From positions 1-20,259 of IMG/VR virus record IMGVR_UViG_3300009079_001915: a stretch of DNA of 20,259 nt; one strand, given 5' to 3'. The stretch is from a virus. Shown one piece after another: positions 2,252 through 20,006 of the stretch (its first letter is position 1; every line of letters begins with the position of its first letter). The translations under genes and the position numbers were made by a program. The notes beneath the pieces are model-generated. The model saw only the letters and a list, made by a program, of their open reading frames with translations. It was not told the origin of the DNA and did not search any database.

Positions 2252-4834
2252 ATGGCTTTTTATACATCCGTAAACAGATACGGTAATTCAATATTGTACC
2301 GAGGCTATAACGATAGCGGAGCAGCAATATCTCAAAAATACAAATTTAAACCTACATTGTATATGGAATCCAGAGAAGATTCTAGATACCATTCTTTATT
2401 TGGTAAACCATTACAACCCATACAATTTGATTCTATGCGCGAGGCAAAGGAATTCGCAGAAAAATATGAAGGCGTACCTAATTTTGCTGTACATGGCACC
2501 ACCAATTATATTCACCAATTTATTACTGACAAGTTTCCAAAAGATATAAAATTTAACATTAGCGATGTGAATGTCGTTAACTTTGATATCGAGGTTGCAT
2601 CTGATAATGGATTTCCTACACCTGAAGAAGCTGCATACCCTATTATTTCTATAGCACTTAAGTCAAGTAAGTCTTCTGTTTACCAAGTGTGGGGTTTAGA
2701 TACTTATGACTCTTCTAAAACCGAAATTGATATGCATGGAGATTTAATTCAATACCATCATTGCAATTCAGAAGAAGATCTGCTTGCCAAATTTTTAGGA
2801 TATTGGACTAAAAACTATCCAGATGTTATTACTGGTTGGAATTCACGCTTCTTTGATATCCCTTATATAGTAAACCGCATTTCTATGCTTGGCTCCGAAG
2901 CTGCTATGAAAAGACTCTCACCTTGGGGTTCAGTAAATGAACGCACTGTTAAATCTCTAAATCGTGAGCTTTTGGCCTTTGAGTTAGTAGGTATTCAGCA
3001 GGCAGATTACCTTGAACTATTTAAAAAGTTTGGTTACTCATACGGCAATCAAGAATCCTTTAAGCTTGACCACATTGCTTATACAGTCCTTGGTGAAAAG
3101 AAGTTATCGTACGAAGAGCATGGTAATCTTTATACTCTATATAAAGAAGATCATCAAAAGTTTATTGACTATAACATTAAAGATGTTCAACTCGTAGATC
3201 GCATTGACCAAAAGATGGGTCTTATCTCTCTTGCCTTAACTATGGCATATCGTGGTGGTGTAAACGTGAGCGATACATTTGGTGTTGTTGGCATATGGGA
3301 GTCTATCATTTATCGCAGACTACTTAATAACAATGTGATATGTCCAGCTAAACAAATTCAAAAGGTACCATATGCAATAGTTGGTGCTACAGAAACTTCA
3401 GTAGCAAAGCCTGGTTCTGAAGCCAGAGAAAAAGGTAAGTCGCATGCAATTGCTGGTGGTTACGTAAAAGATCCTCATGTCGGATCTCATGACTGGGTTG
3501 TATCATTCGACCTTAACTCTCTATATCCTAATATAATTGTTCAACATAATATATCACCAGAAACTATATGTAGAGATCACACTATTCGGTTCCCACAAGG
3601 AGTTGATTACTATCTTTCCAAGCATGATAGATCTACAACTATAGACGACAAGTATGCCGTGTGTGCTTCTGGTGTACCGTTTGAGCGCTCTAAACAGGGT
3701 ATTATTCCAGAGTTGATTGTAGATTATTATGCAGAAAGAAGCACTATTAAAAAAGAAATGCTTGCCACTCAATCTGAATATGAAAAAACTAAAGATAAAA
3801 AACTAGAGTCTAAGATCAATCAGCTTGAAAATAACCAGATGGCTATTAAAATCTTACTTAACTCTTTATATGGCGCTCTTGCTAACAAGTACTTTAAGTA
3901 CTTCGATAACGCTCTAGCAGAATCTGTTACACTTACTGGCCAGACTGTTATCAAGTGGGCTGAGCAGTGTATGAACAAAGCTATGAACGATATCACACAA
4001 GCAAATAAGGATTATATAGTCGCTATTGATACTGATTCAATCTATGTCAATATGGGTCCCCTTGTTAAGAAGTTCGAACCAAAAGATCCTGTCAAATTCT
4101 TAGACAAAATATGTAAAGACCATTTTGAACCAGTCATGGCAAAATCCTACGACCAGTTCTTCTTTGTTATGAATGGCTATATACCTCGTATGGAAATGGC
4201 TCGTGAAGTTATTGCAGATCGTGGCATCTGGACGGCTAAGAAAAGGTATATTCTAAATGTACACAATTCTGAAGGCGTGCAGTTTGCTGAGCCTAAACTT
4301 AAGATGATGGGTATCGAAGCTATTAAGTCTTCTACTCCTGAGGTTGTACGCGATAAGTTTAAAGAAATATTTAAGGTAATTATAAATAGTGACGAAAGAA
4401 CTACACAGAAATTTATATCTGACTTTAAAAACGAGTTTAGCTCTTTAGATCCTGAAAAGGTAGCGTTTCCTCGTGGCGTAACTCAACTTGACAAGTGGAA
4501 AGATAGGCGTACCATATATGCTAAAGGTACTCCTATCCATGTACGAGGTTCTATTTTGTACAATAAAACTGTCAAAGACTATAAGCTAGATAAAAGATAT
4601 GAGTTAGTTAAAACTGGAGAAAAGATCAAGTTTTTGTATCTTAAACTCCCTAACCCTATAAAAGAAAATGTTATTTCGTTTCCAGGCGTTTTACCAAAAG
4701 AAATTGGTTTACATAAGTATGTAGACTATGGTATAATGTTTCAGAAGACATTCATTGACCCTCTTCTACCTATTCTAGATGCGGTCGATTGGAAACCTGA
4801 ACCTGTTGCAACCTTAGAAGAATTTTTTATGTAA
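2252..4834 (+). CDS. 43: DNA polymerase, family B (gp43)
   Basis: 860 residues. It is the replicative polymerase of the T4-like replisome, with 3'-5' proofreading. Exonuclease motifs: NFDIEVA, with Asp112 and Glu114, the same numbers as in T4 gp43; [15 protein letters not shown]; and [13 protein letters not shown]. Polymerase motifs: [45 protein letters not shown]; and the later KKRYILNV. The C-terminus ATLEEFFM resembles a sliding-clamp-binding tail. The start is ATG 2252: AGGAGA (2242-2247) precedes it, the upstream in-frame ATG at 2228 lies in the promoter -10, and the numbering of the catalytic residues fits. It is joined by TAATG to the primase-like gene. Its length is slightly below that of T4 gp43 (898). 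No missing catalytic residue was seen. Confidence 0.97.
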
Positions 4835-5781
4835 TGTACTCTCTTACTGTTTTTAAAAATAGATATGATAATAAAACTCATAGGCGTCTAGACTTTGACT
4901 CATGGGATAAGTTTAAGAAGTTTCTATACAAGTTATCCGAACGGCCATTAAATGATAAGCTAGATGCTGAGCTAATCTCTCCTTCTTCTTATGTTAAGAA
5001 TACCACACGCGCTAATAAAAATGTTCTAGATTGGGGAGGTTGGGCTGCTGTAGATGTTGACGACTATGAGCCACAAGGAGACTTAGAGAGTGATCTTATA
5101 GGTAAATTTGGAAACTATAGATTTATAGTTTATTCTACTGCTAGCAGCAATGATACTCTACCTAAGTTTCGTATTGTATTTCCTCTTACAGAAAGGCTTG
5201 AAGCGGATAGAATTAAACACTTTTGGTTTGCTCTAAACTCAGAGATTAATTCTCTTGGAGATAAACAGACTAAAGACCTATCTCGTATGTATTATGTGCC
5301 TGCAGCTTACAATAAAGCTAATAACTTCATATTCTCTAATGACGATGGAGTAGATATAGATCCATCAGCGCTTATGGCTAAATGGGAATACAGCGAAAAA
5401 CAAAATAGTAAAGACTTTTTAGACAGATTACCAGATGCTTGGAAAGAACAAATTATTGATTACAGAAAATCTAAACTAGATAATACTAGTTATGTGTGGT
5501 CAAGCTATAGCGATTGCCCGTTTGTAAATAAAACCCTTCTACGTGAGTATATGAGCATCGCTAACATTGATGGCACTGGAAGATATAGAATGATTTATAA
5601 GATGATGATCTCTATTGCTGGAAACGCTATTGAAAAGCAATATCCTATTACTGCAAGCCAGATAGTTGATCTAGTAAGACAGCTTGATAAAGATACTGCT
5701 AATATATACGAAAATAGGCCATTAGATACCGAAGCTAATAATGCGCTTGAATACGCATATAAAAATGGAGTTATACAATAG
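4834..5781 (+). CDS. Putative primase-polymerase-like (AEP-type) protein
   Basis: 315 residues, translationally coupled to gp43 by TAATG. I do not recognise it with certainty. The order of conserved-looking blocks recalls archaeo-eukaryotic primase (AEP) domains of mobile elements: WAAVDVDDYE at about residues 70-79, with Asp74 and Asp76 as a D-x-D motif; FIVYSTASSNDTLPKFRIVF at about 97-116; and KDLSRMYYVPA at about 147-157. In related proteins the second block has a Ser-x-His; here it reads STASSN, so the usual histidine is absent. The C-terminal third (after about 225) is helical and may correspond to a helical primase-C-terminal type domain. The window has no DnaG/gp61-type TOPRIM primase, and the position next to gp43 fits a replication role. 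Alternative: an uncharacterised replication accessory protein. Confidence 0.5.
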   Translation: MYSLTVFKNRYDNKTHRRLDFDSWDKFKKFLYKLSERPLNDKLDAELISPSSYVKNTTRANKNVLDWGGWAAVDVDDYEPQGDLESDLIGKFGNYRFIVYSTASSNDTLPKFRIVFPLTERLEADRIKHFWFALNSEINSLGDKQTKDLSRMYYVPAAYNKANNFIFSNDDGVDIDPSALMAKWEYSEKQNSKDFLDRLPDAWKEQIIDYRKSKLDNTSYVWSSYSDCPFVNKTLLREYMSIANIDGTGRYRMIYKMMISIAGNAIEKQYPITASQIVDLVRQLDKDTANIYENRPLDTEANNALEYAYKNGVIQ

Positions 5782-5972
5782 TGTTACCAGATGAAATGGA
5801 AGCCGAAAAGAACCGCAAGATAATTGTATCACAGTCAAATACAATCGAGATTCTTCAACAGAACGTGAGAGAGTTACAAGAACAATTGAATGCTGCGCAT
5901 AAGCGTATTACTCAATTGACTCCTGAAGAAACTGAATTTATTGTCCGCAATCATAAAGGATTTGAAGGGTGA
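5781..5972 (+). CDS. Small coiled-coil protein, GTG start
   Basis: 63 residues. The start is GTG 5781 overlapping the previous TAG (TAGTG); ATG 5796 is an internal alternative. Heptad-like spacing of I, L and V in IVSQSNTIEILQQNVRELQE and QLNAAHKRITQL indicates one long coiled coil from about residue 13 to 47, followed by TPEETEFIVRNHKGFEG. It is probably a homo-oligomer or a partner of a neighbouring protein. The function is unknown. It overlaps kdsA by 4 nt (GTGA). Confidence 0.6.
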   Translation: MLPDEMEAEKNRKIIVSQSNTIEILQQNVRELQEQLNAAHKRITQLTPEETEFIVRNHKGFEG

Positions 5973-6742
5973 GAATTATAGCAGGACCTTGTCAACATGA
6001 GTCGTTAGCTGAGTCAGCAGATATTGCACGAGAGTGTAAACGAGTGTGCGATAAGTACGGCTTTGAGTATTATTTCAAAGCAAGCTTCGATAAAGCAAAC
6101 CGCTCAAGTATGCAAGGCAAACGTGGCACGGGCCTAGAAGCAACACTTACTGACTTTCTTGCAATAAAAACAGAGTTAGGTATAAAGACACTTACTGATG
6201 TGCACGACCACGTACAAGTTAGGCGCATTGAACGACAGTTTAAAGATGCTGTTGATGTCTATCAGATACCTGCATTTTTGTGCAGGCAGACTGATTTAAT
6301 CCAAGCAGCCTGTGCCACAGACAAGATAGTAAATATAAAAAAAGGTCAGTTCATGGCCCCTTGGGATATGAAAGGAGTGATAAGTAAGACTGAAGGCGCT
6401 AAAGACGTTTGGATAACTGAGCGAGGAACTAGTTTTGGCTATAACACTCTTGTCGTTGACTATACTGGGCTTATGTATATGCTCGACAATTTTAAACATG
6501 ATATTGTTTTCGATTGTACGCACTCTGCCCAAAAACCCGGAGGACAGGGTAATAGTTCAGGCGGTAATAGGGATTACGTGCCTGGGCTGGCTCGTAGCGG
6601 GGCTGCTCTTGGGATTAAATCTTTTTTCTTGGAAGTCCATCCTGAACCTGATCTAGCACCAAGCGATGGTCCTAATATGTTAAAACTAGAAGATTTTGAA
6701 AGGACCGTAGATGACATCCACCGCTATTCTTATACCGGCTAG
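5969..6742 (+). CDS. kdsA: 3-deoxy-D-manno-octulosonate-8-phosphate synthase (KdsA), metal-dependent type
   Basis: 257 residues. It condenses phosphoenolpyruvate with arabinose-5-phosphate to KDO-8-phosphate, the first committed step to KDO, the inner-core sugar of lipopolysaccharide. Family blocks are all present: IIAGPCQHES at the N-terminus, FKASFDKANRSS, LTDVHD, QIPAFLCRQTDL, KKGQFMAPWDM, TERGTSFGYN, DCTHSAQKPGGQG and EVHPEPDLAPSDGPNML. Cys8, His185, Glu222 and Asp233 match the four metal ligands of the metal-dependent class; the metal-independent class has Asn in place of the Cys. The start is GTG 5969 within a GTGA overlap, and the protein begins only a few residues before AGPC, so it is short at the N-terminus. 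KdsB follows with a 32-nt overlap. Arabinose-5-phosphate isomerase and KDO-8-phosphate phosphatase are not in the window. Confidence 0.93.
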   Translation: MRIIAGPCQHESLAESADIARECKRVCDKYGFEYYFKASFDKANRSSMQGKRGTGLEATLTDFLAIKTELGIKTLTDVHDHVQVRRIERQFKDAVDVYQIPAFLCRQTDLIQAACATDKIVNIKKGQFMAPWDMKGVISKTEGAKDVWITERGTSFGYNTLVVDYTGLMYMLDNFKHDIVFDCTHSAQKPGGQGNSSGGNRDYVPGLARSGAALGIKSFFLEVHPEPDLAPSDGPNMLKLEDFERTVDDIHRYSYTG

Positions 6743-7379
6743 ATACGGCAGCACACGTTTTCCTGGTAAGCCACTAACACTTTTAGATGGTGTTCCTATG
6801 GTTAAACGAGTATATGATAAGTGTGTAGCAACTGGCTACGACACATATGTACTAACAGACGATATGTCTATTGCGCATCTATTTAATGATAATGATTGTA
6901 GGATAGATAATACTGATTACCAAAATGGAACTGAAAGATGTGCTGGCGCAATAAATCTAATTCGTAAGTATGACCAGTATATTAATGTTCAAGGTGATAT
7001 GCCTGATGTGACAGAGGAAATGATCGAAAAGACGATTTGGCATTTAAAAAACTATCCTGTTACTACTATGTGTGCTATGATGCCAGAGGAACAACAGAAT
7101 GATCCTAATACAGTTAAACTAGTAAGAGCTGCAGATAAGTGTTTATGGTTTGGTAGAGGCATGACTGGGTATGGTGATTGGCACTTGGGAATTTATGGAT
7201 ACAAGAGGAATGCGTTAGAAATGTATCCTGGTTTGACAGGCACACGTGAAGAGCGTATTGAAGAACTAGAACAACTCCGCTGGTTAAAAAATGGATGGGA
7301 TATCGGTGTATTTCCATGTGAGTTTAACGGAGTAGAAATCAACACACCAGAAGATGCAAAGAAGTGGAATGAAAAATGA
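6711..7379 (+). CDS. kdsB: 3-deoxy-manno-octulosonate cytidylyltransferase (CMP-KDO synthetase, KdsB)
   Basis: 222 residues. It activates KDO with CTP to CMP-KDO, the donor for lipopolysaccharide core assembly. The nucleotide-binding N-terminus ILIPARYGSTRFPGKPL matches the family, followed by NGTERCAGA, INVQGDMPDV and DWHLGIYGYKRNAL, then EELEQLRWLKNGWDI and VEINTPEDAKKW at the end. The family block is usually NVQGDEP; here the Glu is Met, while the Asp expected at the metal site is kept. It is somewhat shorter than the usual 240-250 residues. ATG 6711 is preceded by AGGA (6701-6704) and lies inside the kdsA coding region. Its 3' end overlaps the cupin gene (ATGA). Another sugar-acid nucleotidyltransferase specificity is possible. 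Confidence 0.88.
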   Translation: MTSTAILIPARYGSTRFPGKPLTLLDGVPMVKRVYDKCVATGYDTYVLTDDMSIAHLFNDNDCRIDNTDYQNGTERCAGAINLIRKYDQYINVQGDMPDVTEEMIEKTIWHLKNYPVTTMCAMMPEEQQNDPNTVKLVRAADKCLWFGRGMTGYGDWHLGIYGYKRNALEMYPGLTGTREERIEELEQLRWLKNGWDIGVFPCEFNGVEINTPEDAKKWNEK

Positions 7380-7744
7380 AAGCTGGAAAAGTATGGGGTA
7401 CGACAGAACTGATTGAAGCAAATGGCGCTTTAGAGTTTCACCGTATTGAAATGTTTGAAGGCGGTGTATGCTCGAAGCATTTGCACCGCTACAAGTGGAA
7501 TGGGTTCTATGTAGAGTCAGGCAGAATGCTTATTCGTACATGGCAACGCGACTACGATTTAGTTGATGTTACTATTCTAGAAGAAGGCGATTATCATAAA
7601 GTTAAACCTGGTCTTTATCATCAATTTGAGTGTGTTGAAGATGGTATAGCATATGAACTATATTGGGCCGAGTTTAATCATAACGATATTGAACGAGAAA
7701 GTGTTGGATTTCACCAAGATGAGATTGAGCATGATGGTACTTGA
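7376..7744 (+). CDS. Cupin-domain protein, sugar-phosphate isomerase-like
   Basis: 122 residues with one cupin fold. The first cupin motif is at about residues 28-48: GGVCSKHLHRYKWNGFYVES, with His35 and His37 as candidate metal ligands and a downstream G-R-M-L. The second motif is around residue 78-84 (VKPGLYHQFE), with another His. This resembles the C-terminal cupin of type II mannose-6-phosphate isomerases and small cupins in sugar-nucleotide clusters. Its setting between kdsB and a cytidylyltransferase suggests epimerisation or isomerisation of a sugar intermediate. The precise substrate cannot be read. ATGA overlaps join it to kdsB. Confidence 0.7.
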   Translation: MKAGKVWGTTELIEANGALEFHRIEMFEGGVCSKHLHRYKWNGFYVESGRMLIRTWQRDYDLVDVTILEEGDYHKVKPGLYHQFECVEDGIAYELYWAEFNHNDIERESVGFHQDEIEHDGT

Positions 7745-7907
7745 TAAGCTGTTTTTAGATGTAAATAGAGTAGAAGTTATTGATAACAATGGTCGCTCAT
7801 ACACTAAAAACCGAGTAGGTGAGGTGAAAGTACAGCTTCAAGACGATATGAGAACACTAAAATTGTTTGTTCAGTTTGAAGAAGATGAGGAAATATCAAT
7901 TGACTAA
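7731..7907 (+). CDS. Small hypothetical protein
   Basis: 58 residues from ATG 7731 (ATG 7734 is an equal alternative). The longer reading of the frame from 7653 overlaps the cupin gene and is unlikely. The sequence looks like a short beta protein: LFLDVNRVEVIDNNGRSYTK, VGEVKVQLQDD and LKLFVQFEEDEE. It is acidic at the C-terminus. It has the character of a small conserved phage protein, but the function is not recognised. The next gene follows at once. Confidence 0.5.
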   Translation: MMVLDKLFLDVNRVEVIDNNGRSYTKNRVGEVKVQLQDDMRTLKLFVQFEEDEEISID

Positions 7908-7940
7908 TTGGCAAGCAACATGGAAGGTCTTAAAAGAGCT

Positions 7941-8378
7941 ATGGCTATAGGAATAACATTTAGCACTTTTGATTTGTTACACGCAGGTCATATCGCTATG
8001 CTAAGAGAAGCAAAAAATCAATGTGATTATCTAATCTGTGGTTTACAAGTAAATCCTGCCGCGGAAAGATCTGAAAAAAACACACCAGTTCAAACACTAG
8101 TAGAAAGATGGATGCAACTACAAGCTGTAAAATATGTAAATGAAATTATACCCTATGAGACCGAAACAGACATAGAAGATATTTTAAAAATGTTTGATAT
8201 AGATGTTAGAATTATAGGTCAAGAATATAAAGACGGAAAATTTACTGGAAGAGCTACTTGCTCTGCCCGAGGAATAGAAATTTATTTTAATAAAAGAGAC
8301 CATAGATTCTCCACTAGCGATTTACGCGATAGAGTGTATGGAGAAGAACTTAAAAAAGACATTGGAGGTCTTACATGA
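7941..8378 (+). CDS. Cytidylyltransferase-like nucleotidyltransferase
   Basis: 145 residues from ATG 7941. The same frame also has TTG 7908 and ATG 7920; 7941 is preferred because family members begin just before the G-x-T-F-D-L-L-H-x-G-H motif, here GITFSTFDLLHAGH. HAGH is the HxGH catalytic motif. Later come VNEIIPYETETDIEDIL, DVRIIGQEYKDGKF and HRFSTSDLRDRV, a variant of the ISST-type motif. The family includes glycerol-3-phosphate and other cytidylyltransferases and the adenylyltransferases of heptose activation. Here it likely activates a sugar or polyol phosphate for surface glycan synthesis, fitting its neighbours. The exact substrate is not shown. ATGA overlap with the dehydrogenase. 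Confidence 0.78.
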   Translation: MAIGITFSTFDLLHAGHIAMLREAKNQCDYLICGLQVNPAAERSEKNTPVQTLVERWMQLQAVKYVNEIIPYETETDIEDILKMFDIDVRIIGQEYKDGKFTGRATCSARGIEIYFNKRDHRFSTSDLRDRVYGEELKKDIGGLT

Positions 8379-9223
8379 AAATAACTATAGTTGGCTATGG
8401 TTTTGTGGGTAGAGCTGTAGAGTATGGATTTAGAACTCCTAAAGTAAGAATGCAAATTGTTGATCCTAAATACGGTAAAACCTGCTATAACAGTTTAAAG
8501 GACGTTAATCTAGAAGAAAATATAACGTTTGTTTGTGTACCAACTCCTATGAATAAAGACGGTTCTATAGATTCCACCATTCTGGTAGATACAGTTAAAG
8601 AGCTAAAAGAACGAATGTCCGGAATAATTGTTATCAAATCTACGGTAACTCCTGATATAATTAAAAAACTCGTAGTAGGTTCGGGCGGTACTAGAATCGT
8701 ATATAACCCAGAGTTTTTAACAGAAAAGAATGCTATAGATGATTTCATAAATCCTGATAAGCATATCTTTGGCGGAAACGACGGATTTATCGACAACCTA
8801 GAATTCTACTATAAAGAATATAGCCTTTGTAGACCTTGTCCAGTACATCGAATGTCTGCGGTAGACGCTAGTTTTGTAAAATATGGAATTAACTCTTTCT
8901 TAGCTATGAAAGTTCTGTTTTTTAATCAGCTATATGATGTAGTAGAAAATAACGAAGCAGCTTATAATAAGATAGTGAATGCTATAACATCGGATAGTAG
9001 AATAGGTAGATCTCATTCTGCAGTTCCTGGGCTTGATAATAAGCGAGGATACGGAGGAGCTTGCTTTCCAAAGGATACAAGCGCGTTATTTAATTTAGAT
9101 AAAGGGTTTACATTACTAGGAGAATGTGTTAGAATTAATAATGAATACAGATCTCAATATGAATTAGACCAAAGGGAAATAGAACAACATGTCGATTATG
9201 GACAAACTGAAGAAAAACAGTAA
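8375..9223 (+). CDS. UDP-glucose/GDP-mannose dehydrogenase-type protein, short form
   Basis: 282 residues against about 390-440 for the usual enzyme. The N-terminal Rossmann domain starts MKITIVGYGFVGRAV; then CVPTPMNKDGSID, VIKSTVTPDI, YNPEFLTEKNAIDDF, a Lys-Asn helix SFVKYGINSFLAMKVLFFNQ and GYGGACFPKDTSAL, where Cys230 is the catalytic nucleophile. The enzymes oxidise a nucleotide sugar twice with NAD+ to the uronic acid. The protein ends about 50 residues after the catalytic Cys, so the C-terminal sugar-nucleotide-binding domain is missing. The uvsX promoter and start lie within its 3' end (35-nt overlap). It is either a natural short phage form or a shortened gene with altered activity. 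Confidence 0.82.
   Translation: MKITIVGYGFVGRAVEYGFRTPKVRMQIVDPKYGKTCYNSLKDVNLEENITFVCVPTPMNKDGSIDSTILVDTVKELKERMSGIIVIKSTVTPDIIKKLVVGSGGTRIVYNPEFLTEKNAIDDFINPDKHIFGGNDGFIDNLEFYYKEYSLCRPCPVHRMSAVDASFVKYGINSFLAMKVLFFNQLYDVVENNEAAYNKIVNAITSDSRIGRSHSAVPGLDNKRGYGGACFPKDTSALFNLDKGFTLLGECVRINNEYRSQYELDQREIEQHVDYGQTEEKQ
9107..9135 (+). promoter_or_regulatory. Internal sigma70-like promoter upstream of uvsX
   Basis: -35 TTTACA (9107-9112), 17-nt spacer, -10 TAGAAT (9130-9135), identical in both boxes and in spacing to the gp43 promoter. The start of transcription near 9142 gives uvsX a leader of about 47 nt. It lies inside the dehydrogenase coding region and would uncouple uvsX and gp41 expression from the sugar genes. 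Confidence 0.65.
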
Positions 9224-10235
9224 AATCAAAACTTCTGAAGTTCTTGCGGACTCAAAATTCTTTACAGAAGTAGATATGACACCAACTGATGTACCTATGA
9301 TTAACGTAGCACTTTCAGGTTCTGTCGATGGAGGACTGGCACCTGGACTTACAGTACTGGCTGGGCCTTCAAAACATTTTAAAACATCGTTTGCTTTACT
9401 GATGGCAGCATCGTATCTGAAAAAGCACCCAGAAGCTGTTATGCTATTTTATGATTCAGAGTTTGGTTCTCCTCAAGCTTATTTCGAGCAGTTTGATATT
9501 GATACAACCCGCATTTTACATACACCAATTACAAATGTAGAAGAGCTTAAATTTGATCTTATTTCTCAATTAGAAGAAATTTCGAGAGATGACAAAGTAA
9601 TTGTTGTAATTGATTCTATTGGTAACTTAGCTTCTAAGAAAGAGCTAGATGATGCAATCAATGAAAAATCAGTAGCAGATATGTCACGTGCGAAAGCTTT
9701 AAAAGGTTTATTTCGTATGTCGACACCATATCTTACAATGAAGAATATTCCTCTGATTGCTGTTAACCATACGTATATGGAAATTGGCTTGTTTCCAAAA
9801 GCCATTGTAGGTGGTGGCACCGGAATTTATTATTCTGCAGATAATATTTGGATCTTAGGTCGTCAACAAGATAAAAAGGGTACAGAAATACAAGGTTATC
9901 ATTTCGTAATTAACGTGGAGAAAAGCCGTTATGTTAAAGAAAAATCTAAAATTCCTATCACTGTCTCTTGGGATGGTGGTGTCCGTAAGTACTCTGGCTT
10001 GCTCGATTGTGCTCTTGCTGGTAATTATGTCACTAAGCCTTCCAATGGCTGGTATGCTGCGGTTGATCAAAGTACTGGAGAAATTGGACATAAGGTTCGG
10101 CACGCTGACACTCTTGATGAATCCTTCTGGAGTCCAATCTTTGCTAATACAGATTTTAAAGACTTCTTGAAAAAACAATACAGTATTGGTCATCAATCTC
10201 TAGTAGATATGGATAAGATTGTGGAAGAAGCATAA
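9189..10235 (+). CDS. uvsX: RecA-like recombinase UvsX
   Basis: 348 residues. It forms filaments on single-stranded DNA and drives strand exchange and recombination-dependent replication. The Walker A region is LAGPSKHFKTSFALL at about residues 58-72, of the T4 UvsX type GPSKxFK. Downstream blocks match T4 closely: LFYDSEFG, VIVVIDSIGNLASKKELDDA, MSRAKALKGLFR, PLIAVNHTY, VGGGTGIYYSAD, VINVEKSRYVKEKSKIPI and the SGLLDCAL helix. It is shorter than T4 UvsX (about 390) because the acidic C-terminal tail is reduced. ATG 9189 and ATG 9198 are both possible; 9189 is kept because MSIMDKL fits the family's N-terminus. TAATG joins it to the next gene. Confidence 0.95.
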   Translation: MSIMDKLKKNSKIKTSEVLADSKFFTEVDMTPTDVPMINVALSGSVDGGLAPGLTVLAGPSKHFKTSFALLMAASYLKKHPEAVMLFYDSEFGSPQAYFEQFDIDTTRILHTPITNVEELKFDLISQLEEISRDDKVIVVIDSIGNLASKKELDDAINEKSVADMSRAKALKGLFRMSTPYLTMKNIPLIAVNHTYMEIGLFPKAIVGGGTGIYYSADNIWILGRQQDKKGTEIQGYHFVINVEKSRYVKEKSKIPITVSWDGGVRKYSGLLDCALAGNYVTKPSNGWYAAVDQSTGEIGHKVRHADTLDESFWSPIFANTDFKDFLKKQYSIGHQSLVDMDKIVEEA

Positions 10236-12929: not shown

Positions 12930-12931
12930 TA

Positions 12932-12960: not shown

Positions 12961-12986
12961 AAATTATATTAAATATGGAGAATAAA

Positions 12987-13397
12987 ATGAGTGATTTTGC
13001 TAATGACATGTACATGATGCATAACAAATTCGGCGTACGTGAGTGGTTTGAAGCCAATAAAGAAAATAAAGATCTTATGCAGAAATATCTCATGTTTCGT
13101 ATGCTTATGATCGGTGAAGAATACCAAGAGACATTGTCTGCTATTAATAATTCTGATGCAGAGGAAGTCGTTGATGGTCTAATTGATATGTGCGTATTTG
13201 CTATCGGCACTCTTGATATTATGGGTGTTGATGCTAATAAAGCATGGGATGCTATATACCAAGCTAATATGGCAAAAGAGCCAGGCGTAAAGCCTGGTCG
13301 CCCTAATCGTTTTGGATTGCCCGATTTACTAAAGCCAAGTGGTTGGCAAGGGCCATCACACGAAGGCAATCATGGCGATCTGCCGAGTATCGTCTAA
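12987..13397 (+). CDS. MazG-like / all-alpha NTP pyrophosphohydrolase
   Basis: 136 residues. The metal-binding pattern of the all-alpha NTP pyrophosphatase superfamily is visible: E-E-x-x-E at Glu44, Glu45 and Glu48 (GEEYQETLSA), then E-x-x-D at Glu60 and Asp63, with Asp67 in DGLIDMCVFAIGTLDIMG. The C-terminal tail VKPGRPNRFGLPDLLKPSGW is typical of phage members annotated as phosphoribosyl-ATP pyrophosphohydrolase-like. These enzymes split NTPs or dNTPs to the monophosphate and pyrophosphate. In this phage it might control dCTP or the alarmone pool. The start is ATG 12987 rather than 12975, because GGAG lies between them. TAATG joins it to the phosphate-transporter gene. Confidence 0.75.
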   Translation: MSDFANDMYMMHNKFGVREWFEANKENKDLMQKYLMFRMLMIGEEYQETLSAINNSDAEEVVDGLIDMCVFAIGTLDIMGVDANKAWDAIYQANMAKEPGVKPGRPNRFGLPDLLKPSGWQGPSHEGNHGDLPSIV

Positions 13398-13879
13398 TGA
13401 AAAATGAAGGTGAAAAACTTTGGAAAAAGGTGAAGAAAATGGATCTAGGAAACCCGATGATAACAGCCCTTGTTGGGCTGGTCATTTTTTATATTGGACT
13501 TAAGACATTCTCAGGTGGAATGAAATCTATGGGGAATATGGAACACCTTAACTGGTTTCTAGGTAGTCCGATCTATATGTTTTTTGGTGGAATTATCATG
13601 ACATTGCTATGGCAATCATCTTCACTATCTACTACTGCTATTATTGCATTAGTTGCTTCTGGTGCTTTACCGCTGCCTGCAGCTATTGCATGCGTTCTTG
13701 GTGCTAATATTGGTACGACAGGTACAATATGGCTGGCTGGTTTATTTGTCTCTGATGGAATGCCTAAAGGTGATACGCTACGAATTGCAATGGCACATAC
13801 TGGAATGAACCTACTTATGGCTCTTATGCTACTACCTTTTGTTGGACGAATAGCGCAGTATTTAGCTAGATTTGGATAA
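13397..13879 (+). CDS. Half-size Na+/phosphate cotransporter (NptA/PF02690-like)
   Basis: 160 residues from ATG 13397 (TAATG overlap; ATG 13439 is an in-frame alternative giving 146). It contains one unit of the Na/Pi cotransporter fold: a first helix TALVGLVIFYIGLKTFSGGM; a reentrant-type segment with the QSSS signature (TLLWQSSSLSTT, 73-76); a helix AIIALVASGALPLPAAIA; the GANIGTTGT signature (102-110); and a last hydrophobic segment LLMALMLLPFVG. Full bacterial and SLC34 proteins have two inverted copies of this repeat, each with QSSS. A single unit would need to dimerise to transport. A role in phosphate supply during infection is suggested by the family. The terminator follows 30 nt downstream. 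Confidence 0.78.
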   Translation: MKNEGEKLWKKVKKMDLGNPMITALVGLVIFYIGLKTFSGGMKSMGNMEHLNWFLGSPIYMFFGGIIMTLLWQSSSLSTTAIIALVASGALPLPAAIACVLGANIGTTGTIWLAGLFVSDGMPKGDTLRIAMAHTGMNLLMALMLLPFVGRIAQYLARFG

Positions 13880-13909
13880 AAATTCTAAGTCATTGATTAC
13901 AAACAAAAC

Positions 13910-13935
13910 AAAAATGCGCTTCGGCGCATTTTTTT
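13910..13935 (+). terminator. Intrinsic terminator with UUCG tetraloop
   Basis: AAAAATGCGC (13910-13919) pairs with GCGCATTTTT (13924-13933) around the very stable loop TTCG, followed by more T. The next promoter's -35 begins one base after the T-run. Confidence 0.9.
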
Positions 13936-13950
13936 GTGTACATTGCTTTT
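13930..13950 (+). repeat. 21-nt direct repeat, copy 1 (terminator tail plus -35 region)
   Basis: Six T, then G, TGTACATTGC and four T. It is identical to the copy at 20134-20154. It covers the end of a terminator and the -35 region of a promoter, so the unit is a terminator-promoter module. Confidence 0.85.
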
Positions 13951-13965
13951 TAAACGTGTTATAAA
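13937..13965 (+). promoter_or_regulatory. Sigma70-like promoter behind the terminator
   Basis: -35 TGTACA (13937-13942), 17-nt spacer, -10 TATAAA (13960-13965). The start is expected near 13972, about 17 nt before ATG 13989, with AAAGGAG (13976-13982) directly ahead of the gene. Confidence 0.75.
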
Positions 13966-13988
13966 GGTTATAACAAAAGGAGAAAACA

Positions 13989-14192
13989 ATGTTTGAAGTT
14001 GGAATGGGAATTATTCGTCAATATAGAGATTATACTGCAAAAGGTGAAATCACTTCTATTCACGATGATGCGGATGGCGAAACACTTATTAGCGTTATGT
14101 ACGACGATGGTGCCGTGAAAACTTACACCGAAAATTGCGTAGAACAAAACTTAGGTCGTCGCATGATTGTAACCGAGGAGGTAATCTGGTAA
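13989..14192 (+). CDS. Small hypothetical protein, beta-rich
   Basis: 67 residues after a strong AAAGGAG site. The sequence suggests a small barrel: GMGIIRQYRDYTAKGEITSI, ISVMYDDGAVKTYTENCVEQ and a C-terminal strand RRMIVTEEVIW. The D-D-G-A/V-x-K-T-Y pattern resembles short SH3- or Tudor-like modules, but this is weak. It is the first gene of an operon of four unknown genes, joined by TAATG to the next. Confidence 0.65.
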   Translation: MFEVGMGIIRQYRDYTAKGEITSIHDDADGETLISVMYDDGAVKTYTENCVEQNLGRRMIVTEEVIW

Positions 14193-14362
14193 TGCTTTAT
14201 ATTCGTGAAATCGAAAAAATGTTCAACTGCACATTCGACTATGCAGAAAAAATCTTTGATAACATGGGTGGTCTTGGCTTTGACTTCTCTCAATCTTCGC
14301 AAGAAGAGTTCAATGCAACTGCAACTGAAATCTTTCAACTTATGGAAAATGGAGTAATATAA
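14192..14362 (+). CDS. Small hypothetical protein
   Basis: 56 residues from ATG 14192 (TAATG overlap, GAGGAG at 14176-14181). An upstream in-frame ATG at 14135 would lie in the previous gene and is unlikely. It is helical and acidic: MLYIREIEKMFNCTFDYAEK, then FDFSQSSQEEFNATATEIFQ. No family is recognised. Confidence 0.6.
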   Translation: MLYIREIEKMFNCTFDYAEKIFDNMGGLGFDFSQSSQEEFNATATEIFQLMENGVI

Positions 14363-14363
14363 T

Positions 14364-14633
14364 ATGGTATTCGTAACTTTTAAAAATCGTTCTTCTGATA
14401 GCTATCGTTTTTCTTGTTCTGATATTGATGATCCTGCGATTTCAGAATTAAAACTACTGATTCGCAACCAAAACAAATATCTTAATAAATTTAATAAAGC
14501 TATTGGCTACAAAAAATATTCTACAAAAGGTCTTCGTATTCGTCCTCGCGGCCCTCGCCTTTCTACATATGCTCACGACACACCAATTGAAAATGCCACT
14601 CACTTTGACGTGTATACAAGAGATTATTGTTAA
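14364..14633 (+). CDS. Small basic hypothetical protein
   Basis: 89 residues. The N-terminus VFVTFKNRSSDSYRFSCSDI is strand-like, the middle is helical (ELKLLIRNQNKYLNKFNKAI), and a basic stretch TKGLRIRPRGPRLS suggests nucleic-acid contact. It begins one base after the previous stop and ends in TAATG with the next gene. The function is not recognised. Confidence 0.6.
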   Translation: MVFVTFKNRSSDSYRFSCSDIDDPAISELKLLIRNQNKYLNKFNKAIGYKKYSTKGLRIRPRGPRLSTYAHDTPIENATHFDVYTRDYC

Positions 14634-15055
14634 TGACTCACTTTAAAGCTAAGGTCGATAAAGCTTTTATTATTCAGCGTGACGAAAAGGTCAATAAAGA
14701 TAATCGACCAAACCCCTATTTTAGATGGGATTCTGAATTTGTAGAATTCCATCAAGCAAAGGTTGATCAATTTCAGACTTTATATGATGGCTATGAATAT
14801 GATACATATCATCAGATACTTGGAGCCATTGATTATAAAATGTACTCTAAGTCTGGTGTTCATGTATCTGAGTATATTCAAAAACAAATTAAAGCTGGTA
14901 AAATCGATCAGCTTGGAATTTGGATGTGGTCGAGGCCCTGGGGTGGTCCGCTCGAAGAAAATCAAGTAGTAGAATATACAGTCATCGATTATGTTGACGC
15001 AAAAGAAGCATTAAAACACATAGATGAAAATAATAGATTTACATATCCTCTATAA
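14633..15055 (+). CDS. Hypothetical protein, 140 residues
   Basis: Starts at ATG 14633 in a TAATG overlap. Visible features are an N-terminal basic part (HFKAKVDKAFIIQRDEKVNK), an aromatic middle (YDGYEYDTYHQI), and LGIWMWSRPWGGPLEENQVV near the C-terminus, a Trp-rich turn. There is no membrane segment and no known catalytic motif. Its last 18 nt contain the -35 of the next promoter. The function is unknown. Confidence 0.6.
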   Translation: MTHFKAKVDKAFIIQRDEKVNKDNRPNPYFRWDSEFVEFHQAKVDQFQTLYDGYEYDTYHQILGAIDYKMYSKSGVHVSEYIQKQIKAGKIDQLGIWMWSRPWGGPLEENQVVEYTVIDYVDAKEALKHIDENNRFTYPL

Positions 15056-15066
15056 TATGGTAGAAT
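15038..15066 (+). promoter_or_regulatory. Sigma70-like promoter of the nucleotide/modification operon
   Basis: -35 TTTACA (15038-15043), 17-nt spacer, -10 TAGAAT (15061-15066). Seven bases after the -10 falls the ATG of the next gene, so the transcript would have almost no leader. A nearby TATAAT (15051-15056) lacks a -35. Confidence 0.65.
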
Positions 15067-15072
15067 ACAATT

Positions 15073-15381
15073 ATGAAATACGATAATGGCAAACCCCCGA
15101 TTCACCTTGTACCAACTCTCGCTATTGAATCTGCAGCGAGAGTACTAGAATTTGGTGCAAAGAAATACGGTGAAAACAACTGGCGTGATGACATAAACAC
15201 GACTGAGTGGAGTAGATCTTATTCTTCTCTTCAGCGTCACTTAATGGCATATTGGAATAAAGAAGATACTGATCCTGAGTCTGGTCTTCTCCATCTCGAT
15301 CACGCTTTAACGCAACTTATGATTCTTCGTGTAGCATACGAAGAAGGTAAAGATATGGATGATAGATATGAAAGCAAATAG
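15073..15381 (+). CDS. dATP/dGTP diphosphohydrolase-like protein (DUF5664, MazZ-like)
   Basis: 102 residues. The sequence follows the family now called dATP/dGTP diphosphohydrolase N-terminal: MKYDNGKPPIHLVP at the start, AARVLEFGAKKYGENNWRDD, RSYSSLQRHLMAYWNKEDTD and PESGLLHLDHALTQLMILRV. Relatives hydrolyse dNTPs to monophosphate and pyrophosphate; in Z-DNA phages a member (MazZ) makes dGMP. No aminoadenine synthesis gene (PurZ) is present here, so another use is likely, for instance removing dCTP or balancing the pool as T4 gp56 does; that is inference. It overlaps gp42 by 23 nt. No Shine-Dalgarno precedes ATG 15073. Confidence 0.78.
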   Translation: MKYDNGKPPIHLVPTLAIESAARVLEFGAKKYGENNWRDDINTTEWSRSYSSLQRHLMAYWNKEDTDPESGLLHLDHALTQLMILRVAYEEGKDMDDRYESK

Positions 15382-16072
15382 CGTAAACGACGTACGGCAA
15401 TTCTTTATTAATGAACTTAAAGATGAAGCATTCACTATAGATAAAACTGGCGCTAAAACTATTGAATTAATCGGTGCATCTTTTATTGCAACCGAAAAGT
15501 CTATATTTGGTGTACCCAACCAGGATTACATTAACCAAGAACTGCTATGGTACCATAACATGTCGACTAATATCAATGACATTTTTGGTGAACATCGTGA
15601 TCCTCCAGCAGCATGGAAGTATGCTTCCAATTCACATGGTGAGATTAACTCTAACTATGGCAAACTTATCTTCAGTGATACTTACAATAAACAGTACGAT
15701 AATGTATTAACAGAACTGCTAGAGAATCCTGATGGAAGACGTGCTACCATGGTTTATAATCGCCCTAGCATTTGGCTTGATTATAAAGATAACGGCAAAA
15801 ATGATTTCATCTGTACCAACGCTGTCACTTATTATATTCGTGATGGTCTGCTTCATGCTGTAGTCCAAATGCGTTCTAATGACGTAGTCTTTGGTTACAA
15901 AAATGATTACGCATGGCAAATGCATGTAGTACAAAAACTATGCGACGATTATAACTTCCGACGTTTTGAACGCACTGCAAGCGGCAGTGGCGAGGCTATT
16001 GAACCAGCCTTGATGACGTGGCAAGTACAAAATTTGCACGTTTATGAACGGCATTTTGATATAGTAGTTTAA
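15359..16072 (+). CDS. 42: Deoxycytidylate (dCMP) hydroxymethylase, gp42-like
   Basis: 237 residues (T4 gp42 has 246). It transfers a hydroxymethyl group from methylene-tetrahydrofolate to dCMP, leading to hydroxymethylcytosine DNA. The protein follows T4 gp42 along its length: FTIDKTGAKTIELIGASFIA, YINQELLWY, SNSHGEINSNYGKLIFSD, PDGRRATMVYNRPS, DFICTNAVTYYIRDGLLHAV and MRSNDVVFGYKNDYAWQMHV. Cys152 is the nucleophile and Asp183 is at the position that in T4 (Cys148, Asp179) selects cytosine rather than uracil. Start ATG 15359 has AAGG upstream; ATG 15368 is an alternative. It lies behind the diphosphohydrolase-like gene and ahead of the NCS1 permease. The stop codon lies in a hairpin. Confidence 0.93.
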   Translation: MIDMKANSVNDVRQFFINELKDEAFTIDKTGAKTIELIGASFIATEKSIFGVPNQDYINQELLWYHNMSTNINDIFGEHRDPPAAWKYASNSHGEINSNYGKLIFSDTYNKQYDNVLTELLENPDGRRATMVYNRPSIWLDYKDNGKNDFICTNAVTYYIRDGLLHAVVQMRSNDVVFGYKNDYAWQMHVVQKLCDDYNFRRFERTASGSGEAIEPALMTWQVQNLHVYERHFDIVV

Positions 16073-16084
16073 AACTGCTATATC
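16058..16084 (+). other. Hairpin over the gp42 stop codon
   Basis: GATATAGTAGTT (16058-16069) pairs with AACTGCTATATC (16073-16084) with one G-T pair and a 3-nt loop formed by the stop codon TAA. No T-run follows; an A/C-rich leader to the permease gene does. It may partly terminate, protect the gp42 messenger 3' end, or shape the next leader. Confidence 0.65.
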
Positions 16085-16115
16085 TACTACACAACAACAA
16101 AACAAGGAACTTAAT

Positions 16116-17507
16116 ATGGAACTTCATAATGAAGACCTCGGCCCTGTAACCGAGGATAAAAAAACATGGGGTTGGTTTGAAATTTTCAATGTATGGTCTA
16201 ACGATATTCAATCACTCTTTGGATATACTTTAGCAGCATCACTATTCTTATCATATGGCCTTTCTGGCTGGTCTGTCTTTTCTGCTATTTTGGTAGCAGG
16301 ACTTTTTGTTATGGTGCTGGTAAACCTAATGGGTAAACCTTCTGTACAGCATGGCATTCCATTTCCAGTTATGGCTCGAGCGAGTATGGGTGTAAAGGGC
16401 GCTAACTTTCCGGCTGTATTACGAGCTGTTGTAGCCATCTTCTGGTATGGCGCGCAAACTTATTTTGCATCAACAGCTTTGTCTCTCTTAATTAAATCTC
16501 TTTTAGGAATTGAGCCATCGAGTATGTGGCTTGGTATGACTGGCATTGATTGGGTATCGTTCTTAATTGTGTGGGGTTTTCAGATCTTCTTGTTTATGAG
16601 AGGCATTGATACTATCGCTAAGTTCTTAAATTTTGCGGGAGTGTTTGTATATGCTGTTATGATTGTTCTTGCTCTTCTTATTTGGAATGCGGCCGGATCA
16701 GGACTCATGACAGAAGTAGGTACTATCTTTCAAGGCGTAGGTGATTATAGTGGAACAGCACTCAGTGCGTGGTTCGCAGTAGTTGGTACAATGATTGCAT
16801 ACTTTGCGGCTGTTGTAATTAACTACGGTGATTTCTCTAGATTTGTAAAATCACAAAAGGAAATGAGAAAGGGTAATCTACTTGGCTTGCCATTAAACAT
16901 TGCTTTCTTTTCGTTAATCGCTTTAGTAGTTACTGCTGGTACTATTGTAGTCTTCGGTGAACCAATGACAAATCCTACTGATATTGTGGCAGCTGTCGGA
17001 TCTTTACCACTTACTATTGTAGCTGCTATCGCGTTCTTCTTTGCGACTGTTGGCATTAATATGGTGGCTAACTTTATTCCACCTGCTTATGATCTTGCCA
17101 ATCTAGCACCAGCTAAGATCGACTTTAGACTTGGTGGTTTGATTACATCGGCATTTGCTCTCGTAATTGGTGGTCTTTGGGTTTCAGTAGTAAGTCAAAT
17201 GGGTATCTTCAATTTTGTAAATACCTTTGGCGCTGTACTCGCTCCGATCTATGGTATTATGATGGTCGATCACTATATGATCAAGAAAGAAGCACTAGAT
17301 ATTGATGAACTATTTAATGCATCTGAAGATGGTGAATACTATTATGACAATGGTTGGAACAAGAAAGCACTCGCAGCTTGGGCATTGCCTGCAGCGTTCT
17401 CTCTTGGAACGGTATGGTTGCCAGTTCTTGGCTTCTTATCAGGATTCGGATGGGTAATTGGTGCCGCACTCGGTGGAATTATTTATTTTACAATCATGAA
17501 AAAATAG
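16116..17507 (+). CDS. NCS1-family nucleobase/allantoin-type transporter
   Basis: 463 residues with about twelve membrane helices: a full-length secondary transporter in the inner membrane. Family marks: EIFNVWSNDIQSLFGYTLAA in helix 1; GKPSVQHGIPFPVMARASMG with the HGIPFPV block; RAVVAIFWYGAQTYFAS, where Trp110 and Gln114 have the spacing of the substrate-binding Trp and Gln of Mhp1; INYGDFSRFVKSQKEMRKGN, the conserved N-Y-x-D-F-x-R loop; and FIPPAYDLANLAPAKIDFR. Members import cytosine, uracil, hydantoins or allantoin with H+ or Na+. The exact substrate cannot be read. AAGGAA (16104-16109) precedes ATG 16116. It lies between gp42 and dCMP deaminase, which suggests pyrimidine uptake. It is unusual on a phage. 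Confidence 0.9.
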   Translation: MELHNEDLGPVTEDKKTWGWFEIFNVWSNDIQSLFGYTLAASLFLSYGLSGWSVFSAILVAGLFVMVLVNLMGKPSVQHGIPFPVMARASMGVKGANFPAVLRAVVAIFWYGAQTYFASTALSLLIKSLLGIEPSSMWLGMTGIDWVSFLIVWGFQIFLFMRGIDTIAKFLNFAGVFVYAVMIVLALLIWNAAGSGLMTEVGTIFQGVGDYSGTALSAWFAVVGTMIAYFAAVVINYGDFSRFVKSQKEMRKGNLLGLPLNIAFFSLIALVVTAGTIVVFGEPMTNPTDIVAAVGSLPLTIVAAIAFFFATVGINMVANFIPPAYDLANLAPAKIDFRLGGLITSAFALVIGGLWVSVVSQMGIFNFVNTFGAVLAPIYGIMMVDHYMIKKEALDIDELFNASEDGEYYYDNGWNKKALAAWALPAAFSLGTVWLPVLGFLSGFGWVIGAALGGIIYFTIMKK

Positions 17508-17515
17508 TGTATAAT
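17487..17515 (+). promoter_or_regulatory. Sigma70-like promoter upstream of the dCMP deaminase gene
   Basis: -35 TTTACA (17487-17492) within the end of the permease gene, 17-nt spacer, -10 TATAAT (17510-17515). The start is expected near 17522, at the base of the hairpin that follows. Confidence 0.75.
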
Positions 17516-17518
17516 AAA

Positions 17519-17542
17519 CGAGTAGGGCGAAAGTCCTACTCG
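17519..17542 (+). other. 5'-leader hairpin with GAAA tetraloop
   Basis: CGAGTAGG-GC (17519-17528) pairs with GT-CCTACTCG (17533-17542) with one G-T pair, closing a GNRA-type loop GAAA (17529-17532). No T-run follows, only A-rich sequence, so it is not a classical terminator. It lies at or just behind the predicted transcript start and may protect the 5' end of the messenger. Confidence 0.75.
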
Positions 17543-17563
17543 ACACAAAAAAAGGTTTATATT

Positions 17564-18004
17564 ATGGTTAATAAATGGGATAAGCGATATCTTGATCTAG
17601 CATCTGGAGTCGCTAATTGGTCGAAAGATCCTTCATCTAAAATCGGTGCGATTGCTGTAGGATCAAAAGGACAAGTGCTTGCTCAAGGCTACAACGGATT
17701 TCCAAGAGGAATTAGTGATAGTTTTGATCGATATGCAAACAAAGATGTTAAGTATAAGTTTGTAGTTCATGCTGAAATGAACTGCATATACAATGCTACA
17801 TATAATGGTGTATCACTTGACGGTGCAACTCTCTATGTTCATGGATTACCTGTCTGCTCTGATTGCGCAAAGGGTATTATTCAGGTTGGAATTAAGAGAG
17901 TTGTTATGCCGCTAGCAGAATACCCACAACGATGGATCGAGTCGTTTGCATATTCATCGGAACTCTTTAGTGAAGCTGGTGTTGATTATGAGTTTATAGA
18001 ATGA
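17564..18004 (+). CDS. cd: dCMP deaminase
   Basis: 146 residues. It converts dCMP to dUMP, feeding ThyX. Zinc site: VVHAEMN, with His69 and the catalytic Glu71, and LPVCSDC, with Cys98 and Cys101 (the usual form is PCxxC; here V precedes the Cys). Substrate-binding features: SSKIGAIAVG, GYNGFPRGISD and a long loop before HAE as in T4 dCMP deaminase. Start ATG 17564 is used; the same frame opens at 17354 inside the permease gene, but that part is a shadow. T4 dCMP deaminase is activated by hydroxymethyl-dCTP and inhibited by dTTP, so similar control is likely here. ATGA overlap with the next gene. It completes a set with gp42 and thyX. Confidence 0.93.
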   Translation: MVNKWDKRYLDLASGVANWSKDPSSKIGAIAVGSKGQVLAQGYNGFPRGISDSFDRYANKDVKYKFVVHAEMNCIYNATYNGVSLDGATLYVHGLPVCSDCAKGIIQVGIKRVVMPLAEYPQRWIESFAYSSELFSEAGVDYEFIE

Positions 18005-18936
18005 TAGTCGGAACCTTTAGTAAAATACCTAAGAAGACATCAAGCCACAGTTATGGCTATGCCAGAACTTGGTCAGAAAATCTTAATGTACCCATTGACC
18101 ATACGAATGGAAAGCACAAAGATGTTTATCTTTTGCCTGGTGCTAATTTTGGTGGTACTATTAATCTTATGGGTGGGTTTAACGAAGTTATTAAGGTTTG
18201 GATCGATAACTTGCTCGCTTCAGAAACAATAACAGTACTGGACGGCTCTCCAGTTGACTACGGTGCGCAGTTAAAGAAGCGAAAAGACGTAACTGACAAA
18301 GATTGGTGCGATGCAATAACTGAGAAGCTTTCTGAAGCTAAGCCTCTTGTAGGCAGTGATTTACCACACGAATGGTTAGCAATCGGTGACAGTCACGTGT
18401 GCGCATATGCACCGAAGAATAGTAGTGTAGTCAAGCAAGATGGTACTACATTGTTTGGCCAAATCAATGAAGATTTTGCATACATCAGGTCTCATATCAA
18501 ACCGCATCATAAAGGTGTTACCATATCTCTTGGCAATATTGATGTACGTCACCATTTATGCAGAGTAGAAACTAGCATCTATAAAATGGTCGAAGCATAT
18601 AGCGATTTCGGAAAGAGTCTTGGCATTGAAGTAGAATACGCGGTGCCGTGGCCAATTGAATTCGAAGGCCGTAAACTTCCTCAGACCGGGTATTACAAGA
18701 AGCAACCATTTTGGGGCTCAAGAGATGAAAGAATGAAAGCAGCTTGGGATATGGAAGGCTGTATGAAAATATATGAAATGAAATTAGTAAAACCACCTCA
18801 AGCTTGGTATGATATGAATGAAGAAAAATATGCTATAGATAAAATGGAAAGACCCCAATCAGTACATCTTAATCCCATGTTTTATCGCCGTATGAATTGG
18901 GGTGAGAGCGAAAACACACTAGAAAGTTTTATGTAA
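18001..18936 (+). CDS. SGNH-hydrolase-like protein with clamp-motif-like C-terminus
   Basis: 311 residues with no signal peptide. SGNH/GDSL-type landmarks are visible in order: a candidate Ser131 in WLAIGDSHVCAYAP, Gly-Asn at 178-179 in TISLGNIDVRHHL, and His289 in PQSVHLNP. The usual catalytic Asp three residues before the His is Gln (Q286-S-V-H), so the triad may be incomplete. SGNH enzymes are esterases or acyltransferases. The N-terminal 120 residues contain GYARTWSENLNVPIDHTN and a GGTINLMGGFNEV segment, without a recognised family. The C-terminus ENTLESFM resembles that of gp43. Cytosolic location and coupling to the next gene (TAATG) suggest an intracellular target, possibly DNA or a DNA-associated protein; that is inference. 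Confidence 0.55.
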   Translation: MIVGTFSKIPKKTSSHSYGYARTWSENLNVPIDHTNGKHKDVYLLPGANFGGTINLMGGFNEVIKVWIDNLLASETITVLDGSPVDYGAQLKKRKDVTDKDWCDAITEKLSEAKPLVGSDLPHEWLAIGDSHVCAYAPKNSSVVKQDGTTLFGQINEDFAYIRSHIKPHHKGVTISLGNIDVRHHLCRVETSIYKMVEAYSDFGKSLGIEVEYAVPWPIEFEGRKLPQTGYYKKQPFWGSRDERMKAAWDMEGCMKIYEMKLVKPPQAWYDMNEEKYAIDKMERPQSVHLNPMFYRRMNWGESENTLESFM

Positions 18937-20006
18937 TGGAATTAGAAAGACGACCAAATTACGATTGTTATGTGGATTATTTCTGGCCTCGTTCAAAATG
19001 GCTTGAAGAGAATTGCCTAATCGGCGATGCTGATTATCTTGGACCTGAAGCTGACGAACACGTGAACGACGAGTTAATGCAAAATATCCCTGCTTACAAC
19101 TGTGTGTCTAGAACGTATGAAGGATTCAATAACGTAAACCAAGATTTAAATCACGGCACTAATCAAGTAGTATTTAAGAAAAGGCCGAAAGAGGTACAAG
19201 AACGAGTTCAGAAATATGTGACAAATAAATGGACTCTTCGAGAATATGTGTTTGCTTATTATACGCATCGTAGTACTGGATCAGGATTTTATGCTGGCAA
19301 ACCATGGCACGGATATCATCATAGCATAGTTAGTCATTTCGGAATGTATGAAACTGCAGATGAGATGGCGAATCTTATGAAGCAGTGGAAAAAAGCTGGT
19401 AAAAAGATGTTTTCTACTATTGGTAACCAGAACCCTACTCCGAAGAAAGGTATGAATCTTCCTGAACATATAACGAGTTTTGGTTTAGAACTAATGGGCG
19501 AACTGACAGAACATCTTAAAGAAAACTATAATGCAGGTAATCCACCGCTTGAACAAAAGAGTTTAACTGATAGACTTAACCAGAAAAATATAGACAACGG
19601 GATTCGTCGTTGGAACTTTCCATATGCACAAGCCATTGCAGACATTGCTACGTATCATCCACAATATGTAGATCCTAATAGTAGTTTATATTGTGGTAAT
19701 AATGCTAGACAAGCAATCGAACAAATGTTTCGAAAGCCAAAAGGGATGAGTCAAGTAGAATATCACGATCGAGCACTAGCAGATCTTACAGAAAACCTTG
19801 GTACAAATGCTGTGGCACACGAAGATACCTTATGCATCTATATCAGGTTTTTAAATAATCTCGATCGTTCTGGCCGAGGTCTTAAAAATGCTTCAGGTTA
19901 TTATATGATGGATAAAAATGATAAGCCTATGTATCCTGATATTTGGCGCCCTGAAGCGCTTGAAGCAAAACAACAAAAAGCAACTTTAGCGGAGTTTCTA
20001 GTATGA
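18936..20006 (+). CDS. Unknown 356-residue protein with clamp-motif-like C-terminus
   Basis: I do not recognise this protein with confidence. It is soluble. Notable segments: YDCYVDYFWPRSKWLEENCL (residues 9-28); FAYYTHRSTGSGFYAGKPWH (106-125) followed by GYHHSIVSHFG, a block of aromatic, His, Arg and Gly residues that looks like an active site; then a helical region KGMNLPEHITSFGLELMGEL; RRWNFPYAQAIADIATYHPQ; and a C-terminal helical region with RFLNNLDRSGRGLKN. The end KATLAEFLV resembles the C-termini of gp43 and of the preceding protein. It is coupled to the SGNH-like gene (TAATG) in an operon with dCMP deaminase. A DNA-base modification enzyme of helical type is one possibility; evidence for that is only context and the Thr-Gly-Ser-Gly block. 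Confidence 0.6.
   Translation: MELERRPNYDCYVDYFWPRSKWLEENCLIGDADYLGPEADEHVNDELMQNIPAYNCVSRTYEGFNNVNQDLNHGTNQVVFKKRPKEVQERVQKYVTNKWTLREYVFAYYTHRSTGSGFYAGKPWHGYHHSIVSHFGMYETADEMANLMKQWKKAGKKMFSTIGNQNPTPKKGMNLPEHITSFGLELMGELTEHLKENYNAGNPPLEQKSLTDRLNQKNIDNGIRRWNFPYAQAIADIATYHPQYVDPNSSLYCGNNARQAIEQMFRKPKGMSQVEYHDRALADLTENLGTNAVAHEDTLCIYIRFLNNLDRSGRGLKNASGYYMMDKNDKPMYPDIWRPEALEAKQQKATLAEFLV

Follow-up and report, generated by a model that had tools for sequence, protein, structure and literature searches.

Why do three different proteins of one phage end in nearly the same few residues? The question is raised by a 20,259-base IMG/VR fragment, IMGVR_UViG_3300009079_001915 (here the window, meaning the whole of this stretch of DNA), from a T4-like marine phage. 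Its DNA polymerase (gp43), a protein with an SGNH fold and an all-alpha protein of 356 residues (the 356-aa protein) each end, as translated, in a short hydrophobic-acidic motif. The explanation favoured here, with moderate confidence, is that the SGNH and 356-aa proteins are enzymes that hypermodify 5-hydroxymethylcytosine (5-hmC), dock on the sliding clamp gp45 and act on newly replicated DNA.

All three genes lie on the plus strand. The gp43 gene spans 2228..4834 (PHROG 262, E 2.9e-303), and direct translation of its last codons (4808..4831) gives ATLEEFFM. The SGNH gene (18001..18936) closes with ENTLESFM (18910..18933) and the gene of the 356-aa protein (18936..20006) with KATLAEFLV (19977..20003). 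A preliminary description of this DNA had pointed out the three tails, and the open reading frame (ORF) calls place them at the same positions. The likeness could be a chance resemblance of hydrophobic C-termini. A strict pattern requires TLxxF[FLM] and allows no more than one residue after it. Among the proteins of related contigs, 18 of 313,462 internal positions fit it (5.7e-5), as does 1 of 1,597 C-termini from ORFs of these contigs outside the tail families; a relaxed pattern has a frequency of 5e-4 per position. Given gp43, two further matches among the roughly 26 other genes of the window have a p of about 1e-6 under the strict pattern and 9e-5 under the relaxed one; these values are optimistic because the pattern was picked after the tails had been seen. 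Chance draws its support from this post hoc choice and from the frequency of the relaxed pattern. Conservation among relatives therefore weighs more, being independent evidence, and there dozens of divergent homologues keep the tail through synonymous codon change, which refutes chance and leaves it scarcely any probability.

More than 500 relatives were recognised for each of the SGNH and 356-aa families. Homologues were taken from viral contigs, and the counts given here are of distinct homologues. Nearly all gp43 homologues, at 45-84% identity, carry the tail, kept as [ST][LM][ED][DES][FI]F and mostly as [ST]LE[DES]FF. It is present in 39 of 52 short-form homologues of the 356-aa protein and in 36 of 71 near-full-length SGNH homologues, and it persists in homologues diverged to about 31% identity. 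Among tailed members, column entropy drops sharply at the hydrophobic tail positions, and the linker residues that precede them are variable. At the hydrophobic positions this contrast is partly circular, because the members were chosen by a regular expression on those very positions; at the acid-rich positions between them it is free of circularity. The unconditioned counts are therefore the fairer measure of conservation. Mostly, then, the tail is kept while the preceding residues drift, as the preliminary description had predicted. It had also held that homologues lacking the tail would speak against its proposal of clamp clients, and this stands in part: the majority of short-form 356-aa homologues and about half of the SGNH homologues keep the tail, and others lose it.

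To see which other proteins share it, 1,768 ORFs of the loci were clustered with no family chosen beforehand, and a broad tail pattern with a background of 1.2% was applied. The main enriched families are gp43 (19/20), the 356-aa family (40/68), the SGNH family (31/79) and a family resembling HMUDK_hel, the helical domain of 5-hydroxymethyldeoxyuridine (5-hmdU) DNA kinase (3/3). The HMUDK_hel-like carriers score above the Pfam cut-off and end in tails such as STLEEFMQ and KVTLEDFF. The broad pattern is also found in two of three RNase H-like ORFs, two of six ORFs of a small family and 5 of 26 ThyX ORFs, none of which matches the stricter patterns. Directly after one SGNH gene (L061/L062 junction, contig G005 19711-20925) lies a C5-cytosine methyltransferase gene (Pfam DNA_methylase, E 4.5e-20) whose product ends NNLESFFG. 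In cultured Aeromonas phages, a fusion of SGNH and HMUDK_hel-like parts in 44RR ends CSLDGLFAI and the SGNH homologue of phiAS4 ends NTLELFDI, while gp43B of both phages ends NNLFDMFDI. The tail is thus nearly confined to gp43 and proteins that look like DNA-modification enzymes. Because its carriers have this character, the earlier suggestion that the two proteins act on newly made DNA gains support; the late-transcription role offered alongside it is unsupported.

The proposed docking partner is the clamp. The T4 proteins gp43 (KASLDFLFG), gp33 (TNTLDFLL) and gp55 (SPSLDFLYEAND) bind gp45 through their C-terminal tails, which are mutually exchangeable (PMC2988020), so the analogy first drawn with these proteins is sound. 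An interaction of the T4 alpha-glucosyltransferase (alpha-GT) with gp45, also invoked in that description, has been reported from co-purification (PMC13216743). The window is not long enough to contain gene 45, and related contigs encode a T4-type gp45 with 31-34% identity to that of T4 (E 2e-12 to 3e-18); in G008, the contig of a close relative, it lies at 1392-2066. The tail had also been expected on gp33 and gp55. Two of three gp55 relatives end in a tail-like manner (EKLELFMV, SDLSTIFGD) and the third does not; gp33 was sought in the relatives and not identified.

The SGNH protein has been assigned to PHROG 13881, a family of unknown function. Its AlphaFold2 model has a predicted local distance difference test score (pLDDT) of 89.8, with the last residues at low confidence (blocks of 64 and 53), and a Foldseek search with it retrieves SGNH/GDSL esterases and acyltransferases, with E values down to 2.8e-5. 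The catalytic serine and histidine blocks are in place: GDSH at 129-132 and H289 are invariant in 36 sequences, as is D181, and the block III asparagine position holds N or S (GNID or GSID). Its probable activity is acyl transfer or ester cleavage, on a group added to DNA. Among the matches listed in a search of open-licence publications for a link between SGNH proteins and phage DNA modification, none uses the term, and no work on either family was met in this literature, which does not exclude that such work exists.

The 356-aa protein falls into no Pfam, NCBIfam or PHROG family, and its divergent homologues likewise match nothing in Pfam or NCBIfam. Its model has a pLDDT of 65 and shows no significant fold match in the PDB. 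Against viral models, Foldseek matches it to proteins named as amino acid:DNA transferase domains (E 2e-10 and 8e-5). The better of these has a probability of 1.00 but a template modelling score of 0.43 and a root-mean-square deviation of 15.9, a poor global superposition obtained from a model of pLDDT 65. This makes it a probable transferase, akin to the amino acid:DNA transferases, as far as such a model can suggest. No relatives were found in phage records. In bacterial genomes they occur on only two contigs (L246, L247), from one Rhodobacteraceae metagenome-assembled genome, a possible hint of the host.

Close upstream of the SGNH and 356-aa genes in the window lies a gene for a dCMP hydroxymethylase, the source of 5-hmC (15359..16072, plus strand; PHROG 160), closely similar to T4 gp42 (49% identity over 229 aa, E 2e-75). 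In many relatives the gene order is hydroxymethylase, 356-aa family, a protein with a pyridoxal phosphate (PLP) fold, and SGNH. This third protein resembles PLP fold II (L162:5129-6004 and relatives, 60 ORFs); its member in contig G008 matches PHROG 7093, threonine dehydratase (E 1.2e-32), and Pfam PALP only at E 0.0062. In the window no such gene separates the 356-aa and SGNH positions.

From the gp42-like neighbour, the gene order, the fold matches and the identity of the tail carriers, we infer a set of proteins for 5-hmC hypermodification. Once 5-hmC has been built into the phage DNA, the two enzymes would modify it further, the 356-aa protein as a transferase and the SGNH protein by working on the group so attached. 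With their disordered tails, both would ride gp45 behind the replisome and so reach newly replicated DNA. Binding to gp45, the two activities, the 5-hmC substrate and the coupling to replication are all predicted from sequences and models; the tail shared with the polymerase suggests that this marine relative of T4 couples the decoration of its bases to replication. The clamp tails could be real and the two proteins something other than DNA-modification enzymes, for instance late-transcription or recombination factors. Their functions are predicted only and the model of the 356-aa protein is weak, which leaves some room for such roles; the neighbouring hydroxymethylase, the Aeromonas SGNH/HMUDK_hel fusion, the PLP-fold neighbour in relatives and the matches to amino acid:DNA transferases argue the other way and make them distinctly unlikely.

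Several observations weigh against clamp-docked 5-hmC hypermodification. The tail is missing in all nine long-form homologues of the 356-aa protein and in 25 of 71 SGNH homologues, and at 3 of 35 paired loci the regular expression finds it on neither protein, although at one of these three (L127) the 356-aa homologue ends PLETMFG. Direct homology between the 356-aa protein and the HMUDK_hel-like family was considered and rejected, profile comparison being not significant (hhalign probability 0.2-0.3). A candidate arabinosyltransferase of phage RB69, ORF003c, has no such tail. In T4, beta-glucosyltransferase does not bind gp45, and the excess of alpha-glucosylation has been ascribed mostly to expression and not to the contact of alpha-GT with gp45 (PMC13216743). 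Two further points, an alternative tail and a promoter-like element, each bear on a rival explanation.

The alternative tail occurs in one sub-clade, where both proteins end in (T/V/I)LPI and gp43 keeps its own tail. Ends of the form xLP[ILVM] belong to the SGNH and 356-aa families in 25 of 26 such ORFs, and 51 of 52 short-form 356-aa homologues have either the tail or the LPI variant. At L133, L157, L162, L171, L128 and other loci the LPI ends are found on both of these neighbouring, unrelated proteins. A frameshift origin of the LPI tail was rejected, since the reading frame runs straight through it and homologues write it with different synonymous codons. The joint replacement, with gp43 unchanged, looks as if the enzymes had a partner different from that of the polymerase, and so favours the view that the tails bind a common partner other than gp45, such as a replisome, RNA polymerase or modification-complex protein. 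We regard this as unlikely, since the same motif stands on gp43 in the same genomes, the partner of the gp43 tail in T4 is gp45 (PMC2988020) and the SGNH tails of the Aeromonas phages resemble the tails of their own gp43.

The promoter-like element concerns the DNA itself, for the tails might be conserved because their codons double as a ribosome-binding site or as a promoter of the gene that follows. In the window, the genes after gp43 and SGNH start before these have ended, and in some clades TATAAT spans the stop codon: this is so in 16 of 35 tailed 356-aa homologues and 21 of 38 tailed SGNH homologues, whose final M[VLI] is thereby confounded. One related contig (G006, loci L064-L066) contains 13 sites in 58 kb of the form TGTAC-N12-17-TGnTATAAT (e.g. 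L065:12510, minus strand). One of them overlaps with the 3' end of the SGNH gene, where the DNA may in part determine the final residues; the same search found none in the window. However, the tail codons are synonymously variable (leucine as TTA, TTG, CTA, CTC, CTT and CTG, phenylalanine as TTT and TTC), and tails are kept with the next start anywhere from -4 (an overlap) to more than +100 bases away, so it is the protein that is under selection. Moreover, TATAAT is absent from the stop codon in 15 of 15 gp43, 17 of 38 SGNH and 19 of 35 356-aa tails. Conservation at the DNA level is thus very improbable, and an origin of the tail in ribosome-binding or promoter sequence is largely rejected by the codon and spacing data.

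Taken to the wider group, clamp-tethered hypermodification would mean that T4-like marine phages possess an undescribed 5-hmC pathway, in which the adjacent pair usually keeps at least one docking tail and (T/V/I)LPI replaces both in one lineage. This extension is tentative, and we hold it to be rather doubtful. In T4, base modification is linked to the clamp through alpha-GT alone, and it is debated what the contact of this enzyme with gp45 does. A conserved, short and swappable clamp tail on at least two modification-like enzymes across a large group of phages would render replication-coupled modification directly testable. The tail also offers a handle on two families that have no function in the searched libraries.

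Other genes of the window complete the picture of the neighbourhood. A dCMP deaminase gene (17354..18004 as called, plus strand) matches PHROG 174 over residues 61-213 (E 6e-43), and its true start is probably further in, near residue 60. Between it and the hydroxymethylase gene, at 16116-17507, lies a gene for a membrane protein of 463 aa that appears nucleobase-permease-like by eye. At 5969-7379 and 7908-9223 there are clustered genes for DAHP_synth_1 (KdsA-like), cytidylyltransferase (KdsB-like), CTP_transf_like and UDP-glucose/GDP-mannose dehydrogenase-like proteins.

The window SGNH protein shares its fold and invariant serine and histidine with SGNH/GDSL esterases and acyltransferases, but is only 10-17% identical to them and differs in its long N-terminal part, its tail and its GNID or GSID at block III. 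The model of the 356-aa protein has Foldseek hits to amino acid:DNA transferases and the 5-hmdU DNA kinase helical domain, whereas Pfam and NCBIfam give no match and its profile comparison with the HMUDK_hel-like family is not significant. Closer relatives of the SGNH protein are 44RR2.8t ORF233c and phiAS4 ORF0027, homologues of 25-30% identity that have the C-terminal ends given above and are annotated as hypothetical; ORF233c, unlike the window protein, is fused to an HMUDK_hel-like half. Such fusions lie at L211:5992-8379 (44RR2.8t) and L042:5956-8373 (Aeromonas phage AS4), and 44RR also has gene 42. T4 alpha-GT modifies the DNA of a 5-hmC phage and contacts the clamp (PMC13216743), as is proposed for the enzymes here, but it ends FKEQFDIITK, not TLxxF, and is a GT-B glucosyltransferase with a fold unrelated to SGNH. 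With the tails of T4 gp43, gp33 and gp55, those of the window share their place at the extreme C-terminus behind a variable linker, their shortness, their hydrophobic and acidic character and an [ST]L followed by F or L; they differ in that their carriers, predicted by analogy to bind gp45, include putative DNA-modification enzymes.

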